Shown: piece after piece, positions 1-64,000 of the stretch | Position numbering within the stretch: the first letter of the stretch is position 1 | Layout of the letters: each line of letters opens with the position of its first letter | Source of the DNA: Diphasiastrum complanatum | Taxonomy: Eukaryota > Streptophyta > Lycopodiopsida > Lycopodiales > Lycopodiaceae | DNA length: 64,000 nt | Reading direction: 5' to 3' | Assembly (NCBI GenBank): GCA_029204225.1 | Contig: CM055112.1 | Span: 5,001-69,000 of the forward strand | Notes under the pieces: generated by a model | The model's database searches: none | Told to the model about the DNA's origin: nothing | What the model saw: the letters and a program-made list of their open reading frames with translations, nothing else | Translations under genes and position numbers: made by a program

Positions 1-104
1 TAAACCCTAAACCCTAAACCCTAAACCCTAAACCCTAAACCCTAAACCCTAAACCCTAAAACCTAAACCCTAAACCCTCAACCCTCAACCCTAAACCCTA
101 AACC

Positions 105-143
<39 letters not shown>

Positions 144-296
144 ACCCTAAACCCTAAACCCTAAACCCTAAACCCTAAACCCTAAAACCCTTAAACCCTT
201 AAACCCTAAATCCTAAACCCTAAACCTTAAACCCTAAACCCTAAACCTTAAACCCTAAACCCTAAACCCTAAACCCTTAACCCTAAACCCTAAACC
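1..296. repeat. Chromosome-end telomere repeat tract, CCCTAAA type
   Basis: About 40 units of CCCTAAA fill this stretch. The C-rich strand reads 5' to 3' into the window, which is the orientation expected at a left chromosome end; the G-rich strand would end in the 3' overhang. Near 75-150 the units change to CCCTCAA, and near 185-265 some have an extra or missing A or T. Such variants are typical of the inner part of a telomere. The repeat ends directly against retroelement sequence at about 296. Confidence 0.95.
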
Positions 297-650
297 TTGG
301 ATGGGTTTCTTGCTCTTCGACATAGCTTTTATCAGCGCTTGCGTGCTCGTGGCTATCCCAGAGCTTTTATCCTGCTTTGCTTTGCTGCTGCTGCTTCATA
401 CAGTGATAGATCTACTCTTCTCGATGCATGTCATCCTGGGCCTCCTAGAGTTCGGCGGACCCCCCTGGTGCTGAAGCTTGAGCACTCTCGTTTTACTCAG
501 GCTCTAAACCTTGGGGCATTCCTAAACCCTAAACTCTCGGACGCATTCCTGAAAGATCCGCAGTTATCGACACTTTTCGGACGGCCTATCATTTGTTGGC
601 TCCGGGCTCGTAACTTACAGGGTTACTTGGTTCACAGTAGATTTCACTGA
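297..650 (+). CDS. C-terminal end of a Penelope-like reverse transcriptase (partial, no start codon)
   Basis: This open frame of about 117 codons has no ATG and begins at the telomere junction, so the N-terminal part of the protein is absent. The visible part fits the thumb end of Penelope-type reverse transcriptases. It has RLRARGYP near residues 14-21, a YSDRSTLL segment near 35-42, a KDPQLSTLFGRP stretch near 86-97, and a closing ARNLQGYLVHSRF motif near 104-116 that resembles the family's NL..LV.S ending. A stop follows at once, and no GIY-YIG endonuclease is found downstream, which fits the endonuclease-deficient telomeric branch. The catalytic palm motifs would lie upstream and are missing. 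Recognition is by motif only; an unrelated reverse transcriptase is possible but less likely. Confidence 0.65.
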   Translation: MDGFLALRHSFYQRLRARGYPRAFILLCFAAAASYSDRSTLLDACHPGPPRVRRTPLVLKLEHSRFTQALNLGAFLNPKLSDAFLKDPQLSTLFGRPIICWLRARNLQGYLVHSRFH

Positions 651-660
651 TGTACTTCCT

Positions 661-780
661 CACCCTCGGAGCATTGGCTCGAGGTTTTACTATGTATTGT
701 TCACCCTTCGAAGCATTTGCTCAGGGTTTTACTCTTTCCATTGTAATCTTCACCCCTTGAAGCATTAGCTCGGGGTTTTA
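661..780 (+). repeat. Three hairpin-forming direct repeats in the 3' region of copy 1
   Basis: Three units begin near 661, 701 and 751. Each has the form ACCC.t.GAGCAtt.GCTC..GGGTTTTA, so each can fold into a short hairpin. A fourth, diverged unit lies at about 1047-1073 and is also present in copy 2. They follow the reverse-transcriptase stop codon and may be RNA structure used by the element. That role is inference. Confidence 0.7.
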
Positions 781-1173
781 TTGCTTTTCAGGTAGTTTAG
801 CTATTTTTTGCCCCATGCCTATTTTTAGCAGTTTTTCTGCTTCATCGGCATTGGTTGGTACTGCTAGTCTTAGCCACTTTTGCTATTTTTGCAGTTTGTG
901 CTTCTGATGCTCCGTCGGCTACATTCGACCTAACGGTTATTTCCATCGGTCACTTTTTTAAGCCCAACGGTCATTTTTAGCCCTACTTGCACTTTAGCCT
1001 ACTAGCACTTTAGCCCTACCTGCACTTTAGCCTACTAGCACTTTGGACCCTTGGAAGCATATGCTCAGGGATTATTCCATTTCTTCTAGTATAAAAGCCA
1101 CATCTTGGCTCACTTTTGCTCTCACTTGTAGTTAGTACTTTTTGGAGAGTGTGGGGTCTGTCCACCTCTTCCT

Positions 1174-1221
1174 TAGCGCCACTGATGAGCTCTCACGAGC
1201 GAAACTAGTCTGGCTTTGCTA
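1174..1221 (+). ncRNA. Hammerhead ribozyme, copy 1
   Basis: All core elements are present in order. Stem I 5' strand: TAGC (1174-1177) and GCCA (1178-1181). CTGATGA core: 1182-1188. Stem II: GCTC/GAGC with loop TCAC (1189-1200). GAAA: 1201-1204. Stem III is minimal, CTAG, followed by the GTC cleavage triplet ending at 1210. Stem I 3' strand: TGGC (1211-1214), a TTT bulge, and GCTA (1218-1221). Predicted cleavage is after 1210. The layout is type I with a very short stem III, the form reported for Penelope-like elements. Confidence 0.88.
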
Positions 1222-1263
1222 TTGATCAGTACTTTTTCTTCATTTGTGTGCAAAAGTGTCTCT

Positions 1264-1275
1264 TCTCTCTCTCTC

Positions 1276-1357
<82 letters not shown>
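1264..1357. repeat. CT/GA microsatellite inside retroelement copy 1
   Basis: Near-pure CT dinucleotide with one CC interruption near 1287. A tract at the matching place in copy 2 (about 1803-1885) shows it belongs to the element and did not arise later by chance. Confidence 0.95.
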
Positions 1358-1359
<2 letters not shown>

Positions 1360-1486
1360 CTTCCTCTCACTCGCCTTACATGTGATTAAGATCTGTTATG
1401 ATCTGTCTCTCTTTAGTTTACTACTCTGATTCGTTCATTGTATCGTTTATCTTCTTCTCTACTGCTACATATTTCTCTTAGTTGTT

Positions 1487-1557
1487 TAACCCTAAACCCT
1501 AAACCCTAAACCCTAAACCCTAAGCCCTAAACCCTAGACCCTAAACCCTAAACCCTA
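1487..1557. repeat. Interstitial telomere repeat between retroelement copies 1 and 2
   Basis: About ten CCCTAAA units with occasional G substitutions, in the same orientation as the terminal tract. The tract joins the 3' end of copy 1 to the truncated 5' end of copy 2. It is most simply read as an old chromosome end that was capped by telomerase and then extended again. Confidence 0.92.
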
Positions 1558-1808
1558 CCTGAAGTTTAGCCTACTAGCACTTTGGACCCTTGGAAGCATA
1601 TGCTCAGGGATTATTCCATTTCTTCTAGTATAAAGCCATATCTTGGCTCACTTTTGCTCTCACTTGTAGTTAGTACTTTTTGGAGAGTGTGGGGTCTGTC
1701 CACCTCTTCCTTAGCGCCACTGATGAGCTCTCACGAGCGAAACTAGTCTAGCTTTGCTATTGATCAGTACTTTCTCTTCATGTGTGTAAAAAAGTGTCTC
1801 TTCTCTCC

Positions 1809-1887
<79 letters not shown>

Positions 1888-2014
1888 CTTCCTCTCACTC
1901 GCTTTACATGTGATTAAGATCTGTTATGATCCGTCTCTCTTTAGTTTACTACTCTGATTCGTTCATTGTATCGTTTATCTTCTTCTCTACTGCTACATAT
2001 TTCTCTTAGTTTTT
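1554..2014 (+). mobile_element. Penelope-like telomeric retroelement, copy 2 (3' end only)
   Basis: This copy matches copy 1 from about 1014 to its 3' end, including the TATA box (from 1629), ribozyme (1712-1759), CT tract (about 1803-1885) and 3' tail. The 5' junction falls at a CCCTA that is shared by the telomere repeat and the element, so microhomology may have joined them. It ends in the same tail as copy 1 (CTCTTAGTT, then AACCCTAAA). No coding sequence remains. Confidence 0.8.
1712..1759 (+). ncRNA. Hammerhead ribozyme, copy 2
   Basis: Same core as in copy 1: TAGC and GCCA (1712-1719), CTGATGA (1720-1726), stem II GCTC/GAGC (1727-1738), GAAA (1739-1742), CTAGTC (1743-1748). The stem I 3' strand reads TAGC instead of TGGC at 1749-1752, which breaks one pair with GCCA. 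Cleavage is predicted after 1748 but may be weaker than in copy 1. Confidence 0.82.
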
Positions 2015-2206
2015 GAACCCTAAACCCTAAACCCTAAACCCTAAACCCTAAACCCTAAACCCTAAACCCTAAACCCTGAAACCTGAACCCTGAACCCTGA
2101 ACCCTACACCCTAAACCCTAGACCCTAGACCCTAGACCCTAAACCCTAAACCCTAAGCCCTAAATCCTAAACCCTACACCCTACACCCTACACCCTAAAC
2201 CCTAAA
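2014..2206. repeat. Degenerate interstitial telomere repeat between copies 2 and 3
   Basis: About 27 units, with CCCTGAA, CCCTACA and CCCTAGA variants mixed with CCCTAAA. It is more diverged than the outer tracts, as expected if it is older. Confidence 0.9.
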
Positions 2207-2938
2207 CTACACCGGCTCTGCCTACAAGTCCCGGAGCTGCAAGACATGCCAAAGCCTATTGTATGCTGGAGAAATCCAGTTAACCTCAAGCATTTTTTGG
2301 TTAAGTCCAAATTTATCTCAAAAGCTTAACCCTGGTCATTTTTGGAGCCTATTCTGGGATTTGCATCACTTATGCTAAAATTTCATGTATAACTTGACCC
2401 TAAAATATTTTAGGGTTTTCAAGAAAAACCAGTTTTTATTATGCTTGTTTTAAGCCCCCCAGTGGTTTAGAGCCATTACGCATGTAATTCTGATGTATTT
2501 TGAACAAGTTATGACAGTTCGGGACCAAAAATCAGGTCTCTAGCTTAATTTTTTGAAATTTTTAGCACCACTGGTACAACGGCTATTACCACCGTTTCCG
2601 TTCTTGGAAAGTGGGGCCTTGTCATCAGCGTGCCACATAAGCAATCCCAGTCTCGCTCACTTGGAGTATATATGAGACAGAAAACCTTTGTAAAACTCAC
2701 TCTTTACGGTGTTCCACTGATGAGCTTGAGCGATCAAGCGAAACTAGTTTGGAATTAAACACCTCTTGTAATAGAGATTCAGTTTCTCACGTTATCTGTC
2801 TCTGCTCCATCTTTCATATCGTTCTTGTCTTGAATGCTTCAGTTCTTTATCTTTTCTAGATAAAATCTTGCATTCTTTCTTTTCAAGAAACGTTTATCTC
2901 TTTTGCTTAGTGTCACTGCTAGCCTTGTTCCGTTGTCC
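2207..2938 (+). mobile_element. Telomeric retroelement copy 3, a diverged relative
   Basis: The copy begins after telomere repeat and ends at telomere repeat (2938-2962), like copies 1 and 2, and in the same orientation. Little sequence is shared with them except the plan: a TATATATG box (2667-2674), a hammerhead ribozyme (2708-2763) and a pyrimidine-rich 3' tail in which CGTTTATCT and CACTGCTA recall the tail of copies 1 and 2. No CT microsatellite and no convincing frame are present. It is probably a different subfamily, and it is the oldest of the three by position. Confidence 0.65.
2708..2763 (+). ncRNA. Hammerhead ribozyme, copy 3
   Basis: GGTGTTCCA (2708-2716) is the stem I 5' strand. 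Then follow CTGATGA (2717-2723), stem II GCTTGA/TCAAGC (2724-2739) closed by the GNRA-type loop GCGA, GAAA (2740-2743), minimal stem III and a GTT cleavage triplet ending at 2749. The stem I 3' strand is TGGAA, a bulge, then ACACC ending at 2763. Stems I and II differ in sequence from copies 1 and 2 but still pair. That compensatory change is good evidence of selection on the fold. Confidence 0.85.
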
Positions 2939-2962
2939 TAAACCCTAAAACCCTAAACCCTT
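2938..2962. repeat. Innermost telomere repeat stub
   Basis: About three and a half units of CCCTAAA-like repeat separate the 3' end of copy 3 from ordinary chromosomal DNA. It may mark where the chromosome end once lay. Confidence 0.75.
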
Positions 2963-5900
2963 AATTACAATCAACGAGACAAAATGAAACTGAAAGACAT
3001 GAATATCTTAGAACAAAATCTTACTTGAACACAATTTTTTTTTCAATAACCTCCATTTAATGAAAGTTCATCAAAGCCTTTTGACACGACTCTTTTTTGT
3101 TTTTTACTTGGTAGTTTCTTACCCAATATTTGTATTTTCTCATTTATTAGATAATACGAGGTACACAATGTTTGTATAACCAGTTTCATATGATTATTTT
3201 CTTGATTAAGATCCAACATAAGATTCTATAAACGAAAATTATCTAGATTTAAGATTTTGTTATCTTTTTTTGTTTACAATAACAAAGTCTCTTTTTCTTT
3301 GCAGTTAGTAAGTAAACCATTCAACATATTCTCCAACCTATGGATTTTTTGCATTGAGCTACCAATGCCATAACTTTTTAATCTAAATCACAATAATCCA
3401 ATAGACCATTTTGTCCTTCACACAAAAACACTATGTGACTGATCCAAAGGATGTTGCATTGAGCTTGGATCTATTGGATATAAATTTCCATCAACCCATA
3501 TATTTTCTGTTCTCCATCCTATGATGCATGATTTCAAGCGCTGACAATTTGGATCCTTTCACAATCCTTTCGGACATTGGAGCATATTTTGTAGGAAGAT
3601 CAATATGGAAATGATACTTAGACATCTTGATATCCGATAGAAAATCAAATGTTTATTATGTTGCAAGCTACTAAAACATGAAGCTAAAGGGATGACCTTA
3701 TGTATTGATTGAAAATTTTTGAACTACAAAAGTTTGAAATAACCTTGGCGCTCTTTTTGATCCATCATACTCCAACTTCCTTGCCTGATACCCAACTAAA
3801 AAGTTTGTAATTATGACGCAAATCCCTTTTCAGTGGATAGGTGCCAAAATTGCAAATATTTTAACTACGAGAATTTGCATTTTCATGGGCTCTCATTGTG
3901 AACCAATCTGTTCGAAGTGTCTTGGATGATATTTAGTTCACTGATTTTGTTTTCCTCTGATATGCAAGCGATGAGCCGAAGGAGGAAATTTGGTTTCGTT
4001 GTTTTCTAGCTGAAATGAAAGACAAGTTTTGCATTTACAAAAGAGGTGACGTTAGTTAATATTAGTACATTGTCTTAAAGTTTGGACTCCAAGTGGCTAC
4101 CCGTCTTTTAGTTAACTACACATGTTACTAGGGGAATTAAGTTACCAGAGCTGCGTGGACAAACCATAAATCCAGTTGGAGTTTTTTACAAACAATGATT
4201 GTCTCTCTCCTATGGGGCATTCCTTAGAAGGCCCTTTTGGTATATGGATTTTCTCTAACGCATCCCAAAAATTGGCACTTCTATCGGCTACAATAAGTCG
4301 AACTGGTTTTGGGAGCACATATTATCTTTTTGTCCTTCATAATAACCATAAAAATCCATTTCTTTTATTCGCAAGTATTCTAAAGCATATAACAATGTAT
4401 AGCCTATATACAATTTGAGACTTTCAAAGGAAGTTAAACAAAATTTTCCTTGAAGGATTGCCCAACATAAGCAACCTAATTTTACAATATGAACCCTTAT
4501 GGTCCCTGCATTACCACGACAATTATGTATAGTTTTAAAAGCAATTCGCTTCTATTTTTTGATGTCGATCTAGCTATGCTCCACCTTGTTGGTGAGCTTA
4601 TTGACCTCAACTTCAAAAAATATTTATCTTTTCATCTGCTTTGTCCAATTCAACTTTCATCTTCAAAAAATCAATTTTGACCTTTGCTTCAGCCTTTTTA
4701 TGAATTGACAACAGAGTGCCGTACTTGTAACTTGACATTTTCTTTTGTTGGCTCAACATATTTCCAGAAGCTCAAATTTCTTCATTCTTCTTGTAAATAC
4801 AAATCTCGTTGTTGAATGAACCCTATAAAATATTTAGAAATATTAGTCATAGATGGAAATTTTGTAACATCAAATACATAACCTTTTTGCATCAACACTC
4901 ACATCTAAAAATTGCCAAGATTGACCAATACCCCCCAAGTTTGTCACATCATTAATTGCTTGAGCCTTATTGAAAGTCAGTGGCTTCATTTTTTAATCGG
5001 TAAATGTATATAAAAATAGCATGGACGTGTAAGAATTTGATGACATTTGACATAGTGAAAAGATGGGTTTTTCTAGAGTGCTTGATATGAACACTTTTGA
5101 CCATCACTAGTGCAAGATTATCATTTGTATGTTGTTTTTATGGATGCCTTTTGAGAATAGAGCTGATAACTCAATAGCAAAAATAATGACAAGCAAGAAT
5201 ACAACTCTAGTTAAAGAATTGTTAACAAAAAAGCACATTGTAAATTGAACTAAAAGAACACAGATAACATTGTTGGAAGTCCCATATTCAGTTTCAGCTG
5301 ATGGCCCATTAAAGTGCATATCAGCTTTGATATTGCAATTTGTATAATGAATTGATAAAAACAGAGAGTATGGTATATACGGACCAGGTCTTTGGTTTAT
5401 TGAATTATGTTCCAGTTGCTCTATTATAGGTTCAACTTCCAGAATCTCTGATTCTTTTCCAAACGAGGCAGTGAACTCAATAAACATGGAAAAAATGTTC
5501 ACAGCAAGCTTTCTCGTGGCTTTCTATGCAATTGTGCTTGAAAGTTTCATCCAGCATAATAAAAGAGAAATGCAGGTGGACAAGCAAAAATTCATTCTTA
5601 TAGAGATACTCAGCATTTATCCTAATTATCAGTAATAGGCAATTCACGAAGCAATTTAACAAGGCTGATCTCAAACTCATTTTAATTTCATCAATCATCT
5701 AAGTCCGAATTCTTACACTTACAGTTATCCAATCCACACAATACTAAATGATTCATTGCAAAGTTAAATTCAATGGAAAACTTTATGTGATTCATACATG
5801 TAAGTAAATGATTAATCAAATATATATAACTTAACAAATGTAGAATAATACAATCAATGTGAGTGAAGAGAAAACACAGAGTATGCACGTCCATATGGGA

Positions 5901-6154: not shown

Positions 6155-21952
<15,798 letters not shown>

Positions 21953-27770: not shown

Positions 27771-29950
27771 TGATGAAAGGCAAGCATCTTCATGGCTCCT
27801 TGGAACGTGCCGGCTTCTCGTTACTACATACGACTTAAGAGGAGGAGGTGGAAAGCCTGAGACAATTACTTTTTGAAGACTTTATTAAAAGGGCTAGCCA
27901 AGAGCTTACACCATTCTCGAGATATATGACTTCAAGATCCGAGCCTAAGAGGCTTTCTTATGGTGAGAAAGGCAAACAAATGGATCTTGATTCCACTAGT
28001 TATGCTTATTTTATCTCACATGAAGAGCCAAAGGATGTTCAAGAGGCACTCAATTCAAAAGAATGGTTTTCAGCCATGAACCAAGAATATGATGCTTTGA
28101 TAACCAACAAGACTTGGGAGCTTGTGGATCTTCCATCCAAAAGACACACTATTGGTTGCAAATGAGTTTTCCGAGTCAAATATAATCAAGATGGTACAAT
28201 CAACAAATATAAGACAAGACTTTGTGCAAAGGGCTTTGCCCAAATTTATGGACTTGATCATGAAGAAACATATGCACCTGTTGCAAAGATGGTATCAATA
28301 AGAGTTATCATTTCCATTGCCTGTTTTTTCAAATGGAGAATGTTACAATTAGATGTCTCAAATGCTTTTTTTAAATGGATATCTAGAAGAAGAAATCTAT
28401 ATGGAACAACCACATGGATTCATCAAAGGTGAGTCCAAAGTATGCTTGCTCTTTAAGAGTCTCTATGGACTAAAGCAAGCACCAAGATCGTGGTATGCTC
28501 GACTAAACTCTTTTCTTATTTCACTAGGATTCATTCTTAGTGATTATGATCCTTCCTTGTATATCAAGTTTTATGCTAGTGATATTGTCATTTTACTCAT
28601 TTATGTTGATGATATTATCATAAGTGGAAGTAATATCAATTTAGTTGAAGAAACTAAAGTTGCACTTGGAGGAGAATTCAAGATGCAAGATCTTGGAAAA
28701 CTTCATTACATTTTAGGCTTAGAGATTGACATGCATGATGATAACGCTTTTATTTGTCAATCCAAGTATGCTCTTTCAATGCTAAAGAAATTTAATATGT
28801 TAAATTGTAAGAGTATTGATACTCCAATGGAGCAAAATGTGAAAGATCCTAATAAAGGTGATGAAAAATCCTTCATGGACATCGCACTTTTTAGGAGTCT
28901 TATAGGCTCCTTAATTTGGGTTACTATAACTAGACCTGATATCAGTTTTAGTGTTCATAAGTTAAGCCAAGCTATGCAAAATCCTACAATTCATCATTGG
29001 AAAATGGCCAAAAGGGTACTTAGGTACATATCTTCATCCTATGATTATGGTTTATTATACAAGAGTGAAGACCTTTCTATGGTTGGATATTCTGACTCGG
29101 ATTTTGCAAGTGGTAAAATGGATCGAAAGTCTACAAGTGCTTATGTGATTTATCTTGGAGGAAATTTGATATCTTGGCAAAGCAAGATGCCATATCTCTT
29201 TCATCTTGTGAAGCCCAAATACAAAGCTCTTACTACTATAACATATGAAGTACTTTGGATCAAGAGGTTGCTTTTGGAACTAAAGACTATCAAAGAAGAT
29301 GATATACCATTGATCATGTGTAATAATATTCCAGCACAAGCCCTTGCCAACAACCCAATATTCATGCAAGGAGCAAACACATCGAAGTTGCACATCACTT
29401 TGTGAGAGAGAAACTCATTGGAGGGGAAATCTATTTAGAGCACATCGACACATCATCATGTATTGTAGATTTGCTTACCAAACCTTTGAGCAAGAATTCT
29501 TTCATCAAGCATAGAGCCAATCTTGGATTAATTTCGAGATCCATGTTCATGTCAACATAGAATACTTTTCAGGAGGAGTGTTGAAAATGGAAAATCATCT
29601 ATCTTTACTTTTGGCTATGATAAAGTTTTTTCTACATATATGTACTGTTCTATATCGAAAATGCCAAATTTGGCCTAGAGGAAACTCGAGCTACATGGTT
29701 ATATGAGATCTAGTTGGTCAAATACAACATGCATATAGAAGTTTGGCATAGAAATATCAATTATAGGCTTGTAAAAACACGAGTCATATCACATGCAAAG
29801 GTTGTAAGTGTTCCAAAGTGACATGCAAAGCATGCACAAAGTGTAATGGACACATGCATAGTGATTTGGACAATTCTAGTTTAGAAATTGCCACATGGTA
29901 AAAGTTGGTAGATAGATATGCATGTAAAGTGACATATGTCACTAGTTTGT
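27771..29950 (+). mobile_element. Copia fossil, family B: reverse transcriptase, RNase H and LTR start
   Basis: Parts: the segment before reverse transcriptase (27848-28165), reverse transcriptase with the YVDDI motif and RNase H (28353-29405), a purine-rich tract ending at 29578, and an LTR from 29579 (TGTTGAAAATGG) that is cut short near 29950. Gag, protease and integrase are not present here. It is broken, but much of the reverse-transcriptase region is still readable. Confidence 0.85.
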
Positions 29951-47100: not shown

Positions 47101-48590
47101 AACGTTATCCACCAAAAGCAATTCCTCAGGAGATTAAGTCACCAGGGCCGTTGACTTATGTCCAACTAACATCCAAAGTACCCAACACACAAGCGTATAG
47201 GCCCAAACCCAAAGTATACACATGGGATGTGTATCCAGATGAAGTCTGGGATACAATTGATGATGACATGATAAGTGAGGCAAAAACACCGCCCACTCAA
47301 AAACCACAAAACCCTCAATTACAAAAAAAATAATATTATCGATACAAACTTAACCGAGCGTAAAAACAGATGCGTGAGAAGCTTAAGCAACCAATTAAGC
47401 CCTTGTCTAAAGACATGAACACCAAACCATCAGACCAAGCTTCCACGTCCGGTAGTGACTCAACACAGATGAATCCCAAAGTTCCAGAAAACTTTCTGGA
47501 ACCACCTTTTGATCTTCCACAAAAATTTAAAGATTTCACACTGGATGACGTTGTTATCCAGTTACCGCAGCCACACCGGGAACCTACACCAAATTCCAAC
47601 TCCTTTGAAGGACCAGCTAAAACGATGTCGTTAAACCTTAAAGATTCTAACGAGGAGATGGATCAACTAGTTCATGTTGGTGCCCACCTTTCGTCCGAAC
47701 AACTTTCTGATCTGGAAACTTTACTTTGCAAATATAGGGATGTATTTGCATGGAACTATATAGAAATGAAAGGAATTCCGTCTGAAGTAGTGGTTCATAC
47801 GATTCTTTTGGAAGACAATGCTAAGCCTATTTGGACTAAACCTTACAAAAGTAACCCCGTCTATCGTGAGAGAATTGATGAAGACATTAAGAAATTGCTG
47901 GATGCTGGGTTCATTTATGAAGTCCAACATACTGACTGGATATCACCCATTGTGGTTGTACCCAAGAAAAATGACAAACTTTGTATCTTTGTCGATCTCA
48001 AGAACCTTATTGCGGTTACGAAGAAAGACCATTTTCCCTTGCCTTTAACGACCCAAATCTTAGAGAAAATGGAAGGAGCTGAAGATGGATTCAGTGATTA
48101 TCTGGATGGATTTAGCAGTTATTTCCTTGTTCAAATAGCCCCTGAAGATAAACATAAAATGGCCTTTGCCATAGAGAACGAGGTTTATGCTTATAACGTC
48201 ATGCCTTTTGGCTTATGCAACGCCCCTTCAATGTTTCAACGGGTCATGCAACTGGCCTTCCAAGACCTGTTACATCGGATTGTGGAGATTTATCTTGACG
48301 ATCTGGGTGTACATTCCTCGGCAGCTACGCACCTTGACGCACAGGAGAAAATCTTCATTCGCTGTTGTAGATTTGAAATTTTTCTAAACCGTGATAAGTG
48401 TCAAATTTGGGTTACCCATGGGGTGGTCCTCGGACATATAATTTCAAAGGACGATATTTCTACCGATCTTTCAAAAATCAAGGTTATAGTAGAAATGCCC
48501 TTTCCTGCAATAGTGAAGGAAGTTTCTGTCTTCCTCAGTCACACAAATTATTATCGCATCTTTATAATTGATTATTTAGAGCTAAGCACT
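44111..48590 (+). mobile_element. Ty3/Gypsy fossil, Tat-like: gag to reverse transcriptase
   Basis: Parts: gag with a retrotransposon-gag domain (44219-44722 and nearby), a gag/zinc-knuckle and linker region (about 44920-46120), an aspartic-protease-like segment (about 46300-46640, with ILDSGSGINIM), and reverse transcriptase (about 47640-48590, with VVVPKKN, MPFGLCNAPSMFQ and YLDDL). It is broken in many places. No 5' LTR is seen. Confidence 0.82.
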
Positions 48591-49510
48591 ATGTTGATAT
48601 TAAGAGATCTCCCAGAGATTTTAAAGTTGATGACTGGGTATATCTTAGAATACCTAAAGATTCTAAGACTATGAGTACAGAGAAGCATTATAAACTGTCT
48701 ACAAGATATTGTGGACCGTTTCAGATTATAAAGAAAATTGGTTCTTTAGCTTATGAACTAGATCTTTAGAACAAAACTACATCTCACCCAATGTTTCATG
48801 TAAGTCGATTGAAACTAAGTTTGCATGAAGGTGAAGTAGTTGGTTCAGATACCCATTTGGAGGACTCATTGCTTAGCATTCCTTTGGAACCTGAAAAGGT
48901 ACTCAGAACCAGAGATAAACAATTGAGAAATCGTTCTATCTCTGAGTGCTTGATCAGGGGGAAGAGATGGACTGAGAATGATGATTCATGGGAAAGGGTC
49001 GAAAGCATAAAAAAGAATTTTTCTAGGTTTCATTTCTAGAGATAGAAATGGATTAAGGGGGGAAGAATGTTATGTCCATGTCCTGTACAAGGGAATCGGA
49101 ATTATTCTTGACGTGGATAGCCGGTCACTCCTGTTGTATGTGGTTATTAGTTATGCTACGTCATTCCCGACGTGGTCGTATTAAATAATTAATAATCATA
49201 TGAGGGCCCAGACCTATAATTGGACATAGGAGCACATGCATGGTGAAGACTGCTTTAATGCAAGAGTAGGAGATCAATAGCTCAATATAGGTGCATGGGA
49301 ATCCTAAAGAAAATATTCTCTCTCTCTAGAGGAGAATAAGTCTAGTGGAAACTCGCCCCTCCTCCTATTGTGAATTATGATTCTTGAGCCAGTGTTTCCT
49401 CTCCTCTCTTGTGTTCTTCACTGTGGCTTGGGAGTGGATTGGTTAGGGTATTGACTAGCCTCTCCATATTGGTTGGGTGGTTCATGCTCCACATGTGTCC
49501 TTTTGGTTTG
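48591..49510 (+). mobile_element. Gypsy fossil: integrase C-terminal region and 3' LTR, different origin
   Basis: An integrase C-terminal segment with PMFHVSRLKLS (about 48790) and a chromodomain-like end are followed by a purine tract and an LTR starting TGTTATGTCC at 49069, running to about 49510. It follows directly on the Tat-like reverse transcriptase with no RNase H or integrase core between, so the whole is a mosaic of two elements. It is broken. Confidence 0.65.
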
Positions 49511-60290: not shown

Positions 60291-63200
60291 CTAGCTAACT
60301 CCTCACCCAATCTCAAAAGGTGACCCCCTATTGGACTGTGGAAAAAATACAAAATGGACCAAGAGTGGATCCTAATCTGATCCTCAAGAGGGATTGGATG
60401 TCAGATTTACTTGATCTATCAATCTACTTGAGATTAAGATCAATCTAGATCAATTCTAGACACAAAATCCCAACAAGAACAATCATTCATGAAGGTAGGT
60501 GTACTTTCTGGTTTCACACATGTGAAACACTGTCTGAGTATGGATTCCAACCTGAAAATCAAGTACACTATGATAGAACCTCAAAACAATCAAAACAAAT
60601 GTAGACAAATGGAGAGAATCACAATAAATTGCTTCCAAAATCAAGATTGTTGTCTCACATTGATTATAGCCAAATAAGCCTCTATATATACACTTCTTGG
60701 AGCTCAAGGTACTGATCATGCATCAGATCTCACATGTGTGAGGATGCCTTGTCACCATCATGCAATTTGACACTTGGATCAAAACTTTCCATTTTAGGCA
60801 TTTTTGGTCTAAATTCCTACTATATGGAGACCTTCATGAAAATCTTCTAGAAGCAAAAAATCGCAGACTTCAGCTATTTCCACACGTGTGAGCTGTCCTC
60901 TACACATGGGATGTGACACCTACTCAAAACATTTGGCTCATGCAATCAATAGATTGGTGCCATGTGTCATATATCTAAAAAACTAGTTTTTGGCCATTTT
61001 AGCCACTAGAACTTGAATTAAATCATATGTATGACATATATGATTATGGTACATGACAAGTACACTAGTTTCACATGTGGGAACAGGCTCCACACATGTG
61101 TGTTTATCCTACATACAAGATTTTTGGCCTCTACAAGGCTTATTTTGCATTTTTCACACTCCTCAAAAATCTAGCTTGGTAAATCTAGCATAGATCTATC
61201 TATAACTCCAAGAGCCAATCTCAATTTTACAAATGGATCTTTAGGCAATGCCTTGGTGATTATATCAGCAATGCAATCTAATGATGAAACATGAATAAGA
61301 TTGATCTCCTTTGCTTGCAATTTCTCCCTCACGAAATGATGTGCAATCTCGATGTGTTTTGTTCGAGCATGGAAGACTGGATTGTTTGCAAGTTGTTGAG
61401 CTGCTTGATTATCACAATATATGCATGGAATGTCTTCATCCTTGGTCACATGTAGTTCCTCCAAAAGCCTTTTAAGCAAAGAACCTCCTTTGTTGTTGTT
61501 GTCATAGCTTTATACTCTGATTTCGTTGCTGAAAGAGAGATGGTATCGTGCTTTTTGGAAAGCCAAGATATACTCCACATAAGAAATGCACTTATGGATC
61601 TTCTATCCATCTTGTCACCTGCAAAACTTGAGTTCGAATATGCCTCTTAGACAAATATTAGTCCTTTCATAAACTATGTCAAAGTCTTTTGTAGCTGAGA
61701 TGTACCTTAACGCCCTTTTTGCTCCTTTCCAATGACATATTAATGGACTTTGCATGTATTGGCTCAATTTGCCAACACAAAAACTAAGATCAGGTCTAGT
61801 GATGGTTAAGTATATCAAGGAATCAATAAGCATTCTATAGGTAATGATGTCCTCAGAGGATGCTTCACCACTTTCCTTAGAAACTTTTACACTTAGTTCC
61901 ATGGGAGTTTCAACTCCTTTCCAATCAATCATGCCAAATTTTGCTAAGATTGATCTAGCATACTTAGATTGACATATGAAAGTAAAATCATTACTTCTAG
62001 TGACTTCTATTCCAAGTATTACTTTAAGAAGTCCTAGATCTACCATTCTAAATTCACTAGACAAGGAAACTTTTACATTCTTGATGCCATCTAGATCATT
62101 TCCTGTGAGTATAATGTCATCAACATATAAAACTAAGATAATGATCTTCCCATCATTACATTTGTAGTACCATGATGGTTCATAAGAACTTACAACAAAT
62201 CCAATAGAAATAAGATAGGAATGCAACCTAGAGTACCATGCTCTTGGTGCTTTGTTTGAGTCCATAAAGACTCTTCTTCAAGAGACACACCTTGTCTTCT
62301 TCTCCATCTTTGATGAAGCCCTCGGGTTGGCACATGTAGATTTCCTCTTCCAAGAATCCATTCAAGAAAGCATTTGTCACATCAAGTTGGAAGAGCTCCC
62401 ATTTGAAAGAAGTTGCAAGACATATGATTAATCTAATGGTCACAAGCTTTGCAACAGGCGCAAAGGTTTCATCATAATCTATGCCTTTGACTTGCAGAAA
62501 ACCTTTTGCTACAAGTCTAGCTTTATACTTATGAATGGAACCATCTTGATTATATTTCAATCTATATATCCATTTACAAGTAAGAGGCTTCTTTCCATAA
62601 AGTAAATCAACAAGCTTCCAAGTTTGATTTTCCATTAATGCATCAAACTCTACTTGCATAGCTTTCCTCCAATATTGAGATTTATTTGCTTCCTCAAAAC
62701 TAGTTGGTTCTTCAAGCATAGTAGTCAAGAGAGTATAAGAGTTGAGTAGTTGAAAATCTTCCCTTTGCTCCCTTTGTCACTATAAGTGAGCCTTGATGGC
62801 TCAATCCTTGTCCTTGTTGATCTTTTTGGCACCCTTGGACTTTGATAGGTTCCACTTGGTCTTCATCTTCATGAAGCTCCTCCTCGGCCATAGCATGATC
62901 CTTGACAAGTTGACTGTTGTTGGAAGTCACCTTTCCTTTGGCTGCTCCTTTGTCACCATGGTCTCCATAGCTTTGTAGTTAGGATGGCCTAACCTTTTGT
63001 GCCATAATTCCACTTGAGTGAGCACCTCCCTTGCCATGTTCACACTTTTAGCATCCAATTTGAATAACCTCCCTTGCTTGAAACCACTAGCAATACATTT
63101 TTCATATTTCAAGATAGAACATGCCCCATGCTTGAAATCTACATCTAATACACTATCTATAAGTTGTCCTACACTCAACAAGTTCTTTGTAATTGAAGGT

Positions 63201-64000
63201 ACATAAAGAACATTGTCTAGATCTACTTTTTTAGATGATCCTAGACATGAAAGAATGGATCCAACACCTACAATCTCACATTCTTGATCACAGGCCGTGA
63301 AGATAAATTTCTTAGAACTATTGTAAGAAAGTAGATTAAAAAAGTAGTCTTTTTGGTGAGTCATGTGAGAGCTTGCCCAGCTATCAATCCACCAAGTGTC
63401 TTGATTAAATGTTTGTGGTGAGAATACCATCAAAGATAGATTGCCTTATTCCTCCTCCTCAAGTACAAGATGACCTTGATTGTCCTTCTCTTGGGCATTC
63501 TTCTTCTTGTAGCACTCGGATGCAAAATGTCCCTTTTTACCACAAAAGAAAAACTTTGGCTTCTTCTTGTCCTTCTTGCTCTTGCCTTTGGAACTTGATG
63601 CTCCATCTTTGCTCTCCATCTCCATGTCTTGAGTCTTCTTGGATGTAAACTTCTTCTTCTTGCCTTTCAAGGAAAAGTTAGCTTTTTCATCACCATCATT
63701 CAAAGATAAGGAACTCATCCTACTTTTGATATGAAGCATTCTACTCTCCTCACTTACAAGCACACTTTGAAGTTTTTCAATACTAGGAAGTGAATCTTGA
63801 ATAGCAAAAGTTTGAACAAGATTGGAATAATCATCTCCTAATCCATTCAAAATGATTTGAACTAATTCATCATCTTTGATTTTATCATCTCATGAGTATC
63901 CTTGAAGTATTCTTGAAAATTGCTTTCAATGAATCCCATGCCTCTTTGGATGTGGTACAAGATGAGATTTCCTTCAAAAGTTCATTACTTACATTCATCT
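60240..64000 (-). mobile_element. Copia fossil, family E, running off the right edge
   Basis: 3' LTR ending at 61158 in plus coordinates (TGTGAAAAATG on the minus strand); its left limit near 60240-60280 is uncertain because the other LTR is outside the window. Then follow the RNase H end (61171-61479), reverse transcriptase (about 61615-62728, with YVDDI), a pre-integrase and protease region (about 62927-63433) and gag with CFFCGKKGHFASEC (63446-63850 and beyond). It is broken. The window ends within gag. Confidence 0.85.

Follow-up and report, generated by a model that had tools for sequence, protein, structure and literature searches.

The 64,000-nucleotide stretch analyzed here (the window; forward strand of contig CM055112.1 of Diphasiastrum complanatum, assembly GCA_029204225.1) carries at its start a series of truncated retroelements embedded in telomere repeat, which we consider to be probable Penelope-like elements (PLEs) of chromosome ends. 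The window runs from base 5001 of a 46.4-Mb scaffold. Since scaffold bases 1–5000 are all N, the start of the window is the assembled tip.

Window positions 1–2962 contain three element segments (297–1487, 1558–2015 and 2208–2936), arranged head to tail on the forward strand as the initial annotation had described. All three copies lack their 5' ends, each truncated end is capped by telomere repeat, and all three 3' ends lie on CCCTAAA repeat, with tracts of repeat between the copies. The first copy begins at 297 rather than at 661, where it had been placed, as 297–650 is an open frame encoding the C-terminus of a reverse transcriptase (RT). The exact word CCCTAAACCCTAAA occurs 30 times on the forward strand of the full 64 kb and not once on the reverse strand, and all occurrences are inside the first 2.2 kb. 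Copies 1 and 2 are 95.3% identical over their overlap. Copy 3 was suspected to differ and does represent a separate family: over a 41-residue match, its coding remnant shares 44% identity with a fuller first-family copy, and its RT C-terminal motif is a diverged form of that of copy 1. The features of the tip, all on the forward strand, are listed below (UTR, untranslated region; LTR, long terminal repeat).

1–296, forward: distal telomere tract of CCCTAAA with variants CCCTCAA, CCTTAAA and others; 5 kb of N lies beyond it in the scaffold
297–1487, forward: copy 1, family E1, 5'-truncated; 297–650 is the RT C-terminus (117 aa plus stop), the remainder 3' UTR/pseudo-LTR
521–534, forward: internal telomere word of copy 1, CCTAAACCCTAAAC, coding most of Leu-Asn-Pro-Lys-Leu in the RT frame
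1178–1214, forward: predicted hammerhead ribozyme of copy 1 (extent from an Rfam HH9 match below the gathering score); cleavage predicted after 1210, at 277 nt from the copy's 3' end
1488–1557, forward: telomere tract between copies 1 and 2
1558–2015, forward: copy 2, family E1, 5'-truncated within the pseudo-LTR at a CCCTA microhomology seen by eye
1716–1752, forward: hammerhead core of copy 2, with one stem I base changed and no Rfam match of its own; predicted cut after 1748
2016–2207, forward: telomere tract between copies 2 and 3, whose final bases, 2193–2207, double as the internal telomere word of copy 3
2208–2936, forward: copy 3, family E3, 5'-truncated at its internal telomere word; RT C-terminal codons at 2192–2329
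2705–2772, forward: predicted hammerhead ribozyme of copy 3 (extent from an Rfam HH9 match below the gathering score); cleavage predicted after 2749, at 187 nt from the copy's 3' end
2937–2962, forward: innermost short telomere tract, CCTAAACCCTAAAACCCTAAACCCTT, adjoining ordinary sequence

The element unit and its distribution in the genome

The 1.74-Gb genome contains four related families: E1 (copies 1 and 2), E3 (copy 3), E4 (a diverged relative) and E5 (locus L012). One E1 unit on scaffold C18 (L058/L074/L059) is 4773 bp long and contains two overlapping open reading frames, ORF1 (680 aa) and RT (749 aa). Its 3' UTR holds a CT microsatellite and the hammerhead, and the unit ends in CTTAACCCTA. 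The two frames share some 390 nt, read in different phases; the RT may be translated by frameshift or restart. The RT frame contains the motifs FD[IV]ESLYPSIP, GTAMG, [FY]IDD and N[KR]YQYLPWSSxHP, identified by eye, which we take to be PLE-like. It terminates in VHSRFH and a stop codon at all 30 E1 loci, and no open frame of at least 120 aa starts downstream of it in the unit read. Pfam gave no endonuclease match, GIY-YIG or other, in the RT frame (617 aa scanned) or in ORF1 (first 419 of 680 aa), and the scanned part of ORF1 had no Pfam match at all. This organization resembles the endonuclease-deficient PLEs, which have two ORFs, no endonuclease and a length of 4–6 kb (PMC6431247).

One hammerhead core (CUGAUGA...CGAAAC) is present in each window copy. 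The Rfam model HH9 matched copy 1 (E = 0.12) and copy 3 (E = 0.32), both below the gathering score, and did not match copy 2. Stem III consists of two pairs only. The hammerhead of copy 3 folds clearly better than shuffled sequences (z = −2.95). Among 10 distinct hammerhead sequences from the four families, 93.9% of cells are paired, versus 26–40% in slid controls; three pairs are changed on both sides, while shuffles average 1.0 and 10 of 500 reach three. With their core, short stem III and paired stems I and II, these motifs are predicted to be minimal type I hammerheads, the form given for PLEs and Terminons, whereas type III is given for plants (PMC7761336). The fuller copies called for by the initial annotation thus combine an RT frame lacking a recognized endonuclease with the minimal ribozyme described for PLEs. 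Hammerheads also sit in the LTRs of plant retrozymes, according to literature abstracts, and the units might be such non-autonomous elements instead of PLEs. We rejected this explanation, which is extremely improbable given that the units carry their own RT frame and that the two-pair stem III is PLE- or Terminon-like. Cutting by the hammerhead was also considered, and rejected, as the source of the short copies: no 5' end was noticed at the cut site among the junctions listed, a list made without L038–L040.

For E1, at least 42 matches were found (40 scored of 75 candidates), and 30 loci were fetched. Placed copies were counted with a pattern matching the intact internal word of E1 exactly. 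It gave 48 copies, 17 of them on unplaced contigs; the other 31 are on chromosome-scale scaffolds. The clustering at chromosome ends that had been anticipated is observed: 21 of the 31 placed copies are no more than 30 kb from an end, at nine ends in all (C9R, C11L, C13R, C14R, C16R, C17L, C18R, C21L and C21R), and 18 of these 21 point in the direction expected for priming by the telomere. A chance repeat is rejected by this clustering and by the strand bias of 30 to 0 in the window. The same genome encodes a telomerase RNA-binding domain, in an open frame on C5 (E = 1e-32). E1 copies with telomere tracts also occur mid-scaffold at G000:C7:38.69 Mb and G000:C10:50.44 Mb, which may be old chromosome fusions or scaffolding errors.

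Much of E1 is organized in head-to-tail arrays of units of about 4.8 kb. We found 25 exact unit joints, one of them 181 bp or less from the end of C9, and a unit spacing of 4.74–4.87 kb in the five contigs checked, one of which is unplaced. A three-step series, regarded initially as unusual, is thus not so within this genome, where longer arrays occupy other ends. The median pairwise identity of the 30 E1 loci is 99.67% over about 918 bp, and in 25 of 30 the RT frame stays open upstream of the word as far as the fetched sequence extends; judging from both, the E1 copies are probably recent. Stacking of unrelated telomere-rich contigs at scaffold ends during assembly could mimic arrays of this kind, and N at the start of scaffolds such as C21 and C17, as well as the presence of both copy orientations near one end of C16, would be in keeping with it. 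Such an artefact is very unlikely in view of the joint sequence repeated identically 25 times, the regular spacing, and the location of the junctions within continuous sequence.

E3 gave 45 matches, of which six cover the full 732-base query and the others are partial or belong to the diverged relative E4. Three of the matches (L032/L036/L037, G000:C11:8659–8841) are spaced by 66 bp; the 66-bp tandem unit comprises the last ~51 bp of E3 plus telomere repeat and appears to be a small satellite born from the E3 3' end. On the unplaced contig G000:C5025 (L012, L013), an E3-bearing stretch is inverted and duplicated about 10 kb apart. Short E4 units stand in tandem on G000:C4 (L024/L039), with their words 778 bp apart at 2142746 and 2143524 and few telomere units at the joints; a non-autonomous short form is possible.

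Junctions with telomere repeat

The expectation that 3' ends always meet telomere repeat was borne out. All 29 testable E1 loci of the 30 fetched have their 3' end on at least one telomere unit, and the remaining one, L049, ends at a contig edge. Of these junctions, 28 were read by script and one, L045 with its 35-bp tract, separately. In 17 of the 28, a single AACCCTA is followed directly by the next copy (14 in the exact class and 3 variants assigned by eye). The other 11 run into a telomere tract, in three registers (6, 4 and 1 cases) inside one 10-nt stub, which match primers ending in GGGTT, TTTAGG or TTTAG. These registers fit permutations of a TTTAGGG primer and would be unexpected from block duplication. 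The stub is complementary to the telomere and lies between the pseudo-LTR and the next unit (CUUAACCCUA in E1, CCUAAACCC in E3). In E3 it is also found, as CCTAAACCC, between the pseudo-LTR and ORF1, which makes it a component of the element itself.

Telomere repeat at the 3' end could also reflect the target choice of an ordinary endonuclease-bearing retroelement. TRAS and SART carry an endonuclease and insert into telomere repeat. Both are named among telomere-associated transposons (PMC10088271). We give such an origin little credence and rejected an ordinary telomere-inserting long interspersed nuclear element: an endonuclease domain was recognized neither in the scanned RT frame nor in the first 419 aa of ORF1, the 5' truncation points are many and varied, each being capped directly by repeat, and the stub belongs to the element.

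The 5' ends reveal a second point of contact with the telomere. The RT genes of E1, E3 and E4 encode Leu-Asn-Pro-Lys-Leu as CTAAACCCTAAACT, which together with the preceding base forms a 14-nt match to the telomere repeat. Nine junctions between a tract and an E1 element were read (those of window copies 1 and 2, L046, L050, L065, L066, L067, L068 and L069), and four of them fall exactly at this word. The chance of this is about 1e-8 if they are independent; should some have a common origin, the chance for 2 of 7 is 2e-4. The exact word-junction pattern occurs at seven places, representing six word-truncated E1 copies after tracts and one in-place expansion on C9; the copies on C17 and C1557 came from the pattern search for that very junction and were left out of the probability. 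E3 has word junctions in window copy 3 and on C5025. E4 has six (two on C4 near 2.14 Mb, L025, L027, L030 and L031), the word itself being changed in three of them (L027, L030 and L031); its word pattern gave eight matches, of which two, on C13, are unclassified. Some of the E3 and E4 junctions are preceded by just one or two telomere units. The word junctions of window copy 3 and L012 were read separately, because the script's anchors or variant repeats missed them and it gave 0. Two internal deletions, L020/L042 and L028/L031, have an end point at the word as well. Earlier in the E1 RT gene, at unit position 2344 (L059; about 290–310 in element orientation), stands a second telomere-like word, CCTAAACCCTGAACT (Leu-Asn-Pro-Glu-Leu), and the E3 residues aligned to it differ.

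Short matches to the repeat are present at other junctions as well. Seven non-word junctions, a set drawn up without those of L015, L017 and L028, have microhomologies of 3, 5, 2, 3, 0, 3 and 0 nt, a sum of 16 compared with 4.6 expected (P = 0.0002). The value of 5 (CCCTA), that of copy 2, was read by eye because the script anchor missed this junction; with copy 2 counted as 0, the script-only sum is 11 (P = 0.015).

Could recombination have built the arrays, through subtelomere duplication, unequal crossing-over between tracts, and cuts at the word by telomere rapid deletion or t-loop excision? The near-identity of E1 copies across ends is what gene conversion would give, the inverted duplicate on C5025 (L012, L013) is in keeping with it, and t-loop excision at an internal word would yield exactly the 5'-truncated product observed; the two internal deletions ending at the word point the same way. 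Block duplication, on the other hand, predicts something other than 3' junctions in three registers of one 10-nt stub, tract lengths and variant units differ from copy to copy, and several truncations outside the word show 2–5 nt of microhomology. In a further variant, a G-overhang would invade the word and start break-induced copying, which predicts mirror-image, 3'-truncated copies. An exact pattern, applied to E1 only, found none, its single match being L076 on C9, where the word is expanded by 14 nt in place, and this variant was rejected. Overall, a recombinational origin is possible but doubtful, and the word truncations themselves could be due to t-loop excision or to telomerase capping, which sequence alone does not separate.

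Origin of the arrays and a possible role of the internal word

The initial annotation proposed Penelope-like elements primed by the telomere, and our results support that proposal. The most probable explanation is that these are endonuclease-deficient PLEs living on chromosome ends, primed by the G-rich end and capped by telomerase. Endonuclease-deficient PLEs are described as being primed at exposed ends, with the 5' end then capped (PMC3846280). In the mechanism envisaged, the element RNA would carry the telomere-complementary stub between pseudo-LTR and next unit, and the G-rich single-stranded chromosome end would anneal to it and prime reverse transcription, which would place the 3' end of every new copy on telomere repeat. 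Run-on RNA from tandem arrays may be copied, adding one or more ~4.8-kb units per event. Telomerase would then cap the copied end with new repeat, often at a match of 2–5 nt and strikingly often at the 14-nt word, and repeated cycles would produce the three-step series of the window. Priming by the G-rich end at the stub would account for the position and orientation of the copies and for the 3' registers, run-on copying for the single-unit joints, and the action of telomerase for the capping at short matches and at the word. The anatomy, junctions, arrays, orientation, telomerase domain and recurrent truncation at the word are observed; the steps of the mechanism, like a role for the word or for the ribozyme, are our inference.

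A number of observations weigh against this explanation. Three of the 21 near-end E1 copies have the other orientation, and 10 of the 31 placed copies are not demonstrably near an end, including four mid-scaffold on C10, two on C7 and one on C6 at an unspecified distance from the end. The RT has no Pfam or PDB match, and the PLE label consequently rests on motifs identified by eye and on the architecture. For copies 1 and 2, the hammerhead fold is not clearly superior to that of shuffled sequences (z = −1.30 and 0.02). Microhomology is absent at two of the seven non-word junctions (three by script only). Some of the word-truncated copies on C16 and C3207 may share one event; the word of the E4 copy L035 is altered at its first base (TTA first), and that of the fourth family, E5, is degenerate. 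Finally, the identity of codons at the word stands out only modestly: elsewhere, 119 of the 284 residues shared by E1 and one E3 copy (42%) have identical codons, and there are further runs of 4–5 identical codons.

A tentative suggestion, possible rather than probable, is that the word serves as a telomere seed built into the RT gene and maintained by selection, in which one stretch provides both protein code and a telomerase-extendable end. Codon identity at shared residues ranges from 34% to 49% over six comparisons, and that at the word appears mildly unusual. Tested as a sign of selection, codon identity by itself is only suggestive, and for this reason the seed is offered as a hypothesis. 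If it is correct, copying that stopped at the word would leave a ready-made telomere end. The element would bring its own landing site, the 3' stub, as well as its own cap, the internal word, and the plant would keep mixed chromosome ends maintained by telomerase plus retroelements.

Near-identical and largely open arrays thus reach several chromosome ends in a plant whose genome encodes a telomerase domain as well. Endonuclease-deficient PLEs offer a natural test of the idea that telomerase and the RTs of these elements have a common origin and act on the same substrate to this day. The junctions described here make two questions directly testable: whether the chromosome end primes the RT, and whether telomerase caps the product at a seed borne by the element.

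Outside the tip, the window contains an open frame with a DUF659 domain on the reverse strand at 13100–14683 (E = 2e-38), which we presume to be linked to hAT-type transposases, and a perfect tandem duplication of 142 bp at 12059–12345. Fragments of Gypsy- and copia-like retrotransposons are located at 19116–20482, 28353–29405, 47364–48674 and 61615–63445; two were scanned with Pfam (chromodomain and RVT_1 matches) and the others judged by eye.

Comparison with known systems

Telomeric endonuclease-deficient PLEs are already known from rotifers, fungi, protists and spike moss, so the overall outline seen here has precedents. As far as the literature searches went, arrays at several ends of plant chromosomes and repeated truncation at an in-gene word look like a novel variation on it; within the portions surveyed, we saw no case of an element cut short at a telomere word of its own. 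The PLEs of Selaginella moellendorffii go by the name Coprina. They are likewise telomere-associated PLEs in a plant (cited in PMC12477314), and the same review, from 2025, states with regard to Drosophila-like telomeric retrotransposons that nothing similar has so far been found in plants.

The closest counterparts are the Athena and Terminon elements of bdelloid rotifers. They share with the elements described here two frames without endonuclease, units of a few kb, a hammerhead motif, a telomere-complementary 3' stretch, repeat-capped 5' truncation and head-to-tail arrays (PMC6431247, PMC3846280). Embedded telomere repeats are mentioned for Athena (PMC10088271); the portions of the literature surveyed do not mention a word in the RT gene or truncation there. 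The predicted cut is 187–277 nt before the stub in our elements and immediately beside it in theirs, and the present unit is 4.77 kb long without recognized accessory genes. We do not classify our elements as Terminons because of this distance and this unit size, Terminons being giant units with accessory genes.

The Poseidon PLE of Anolis (PAc) also has tandem units with common pseudo-LTRs, a hammerhead near the pLTR-ORF joint, and reverse transcription that begins inside the RNA, but it has a GIY-YIG endonuclease and AT-rich target sites (PMC11167929). HeT-A, TART and TAHRE of Drosophila similarly form retroelement arrays at chromosome ends (PMC12477314). In contrast to those non-LTR elements, which replace telomerase, the arrays of D. 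complanatum coexist with a telomerase domain and telomere repeats.

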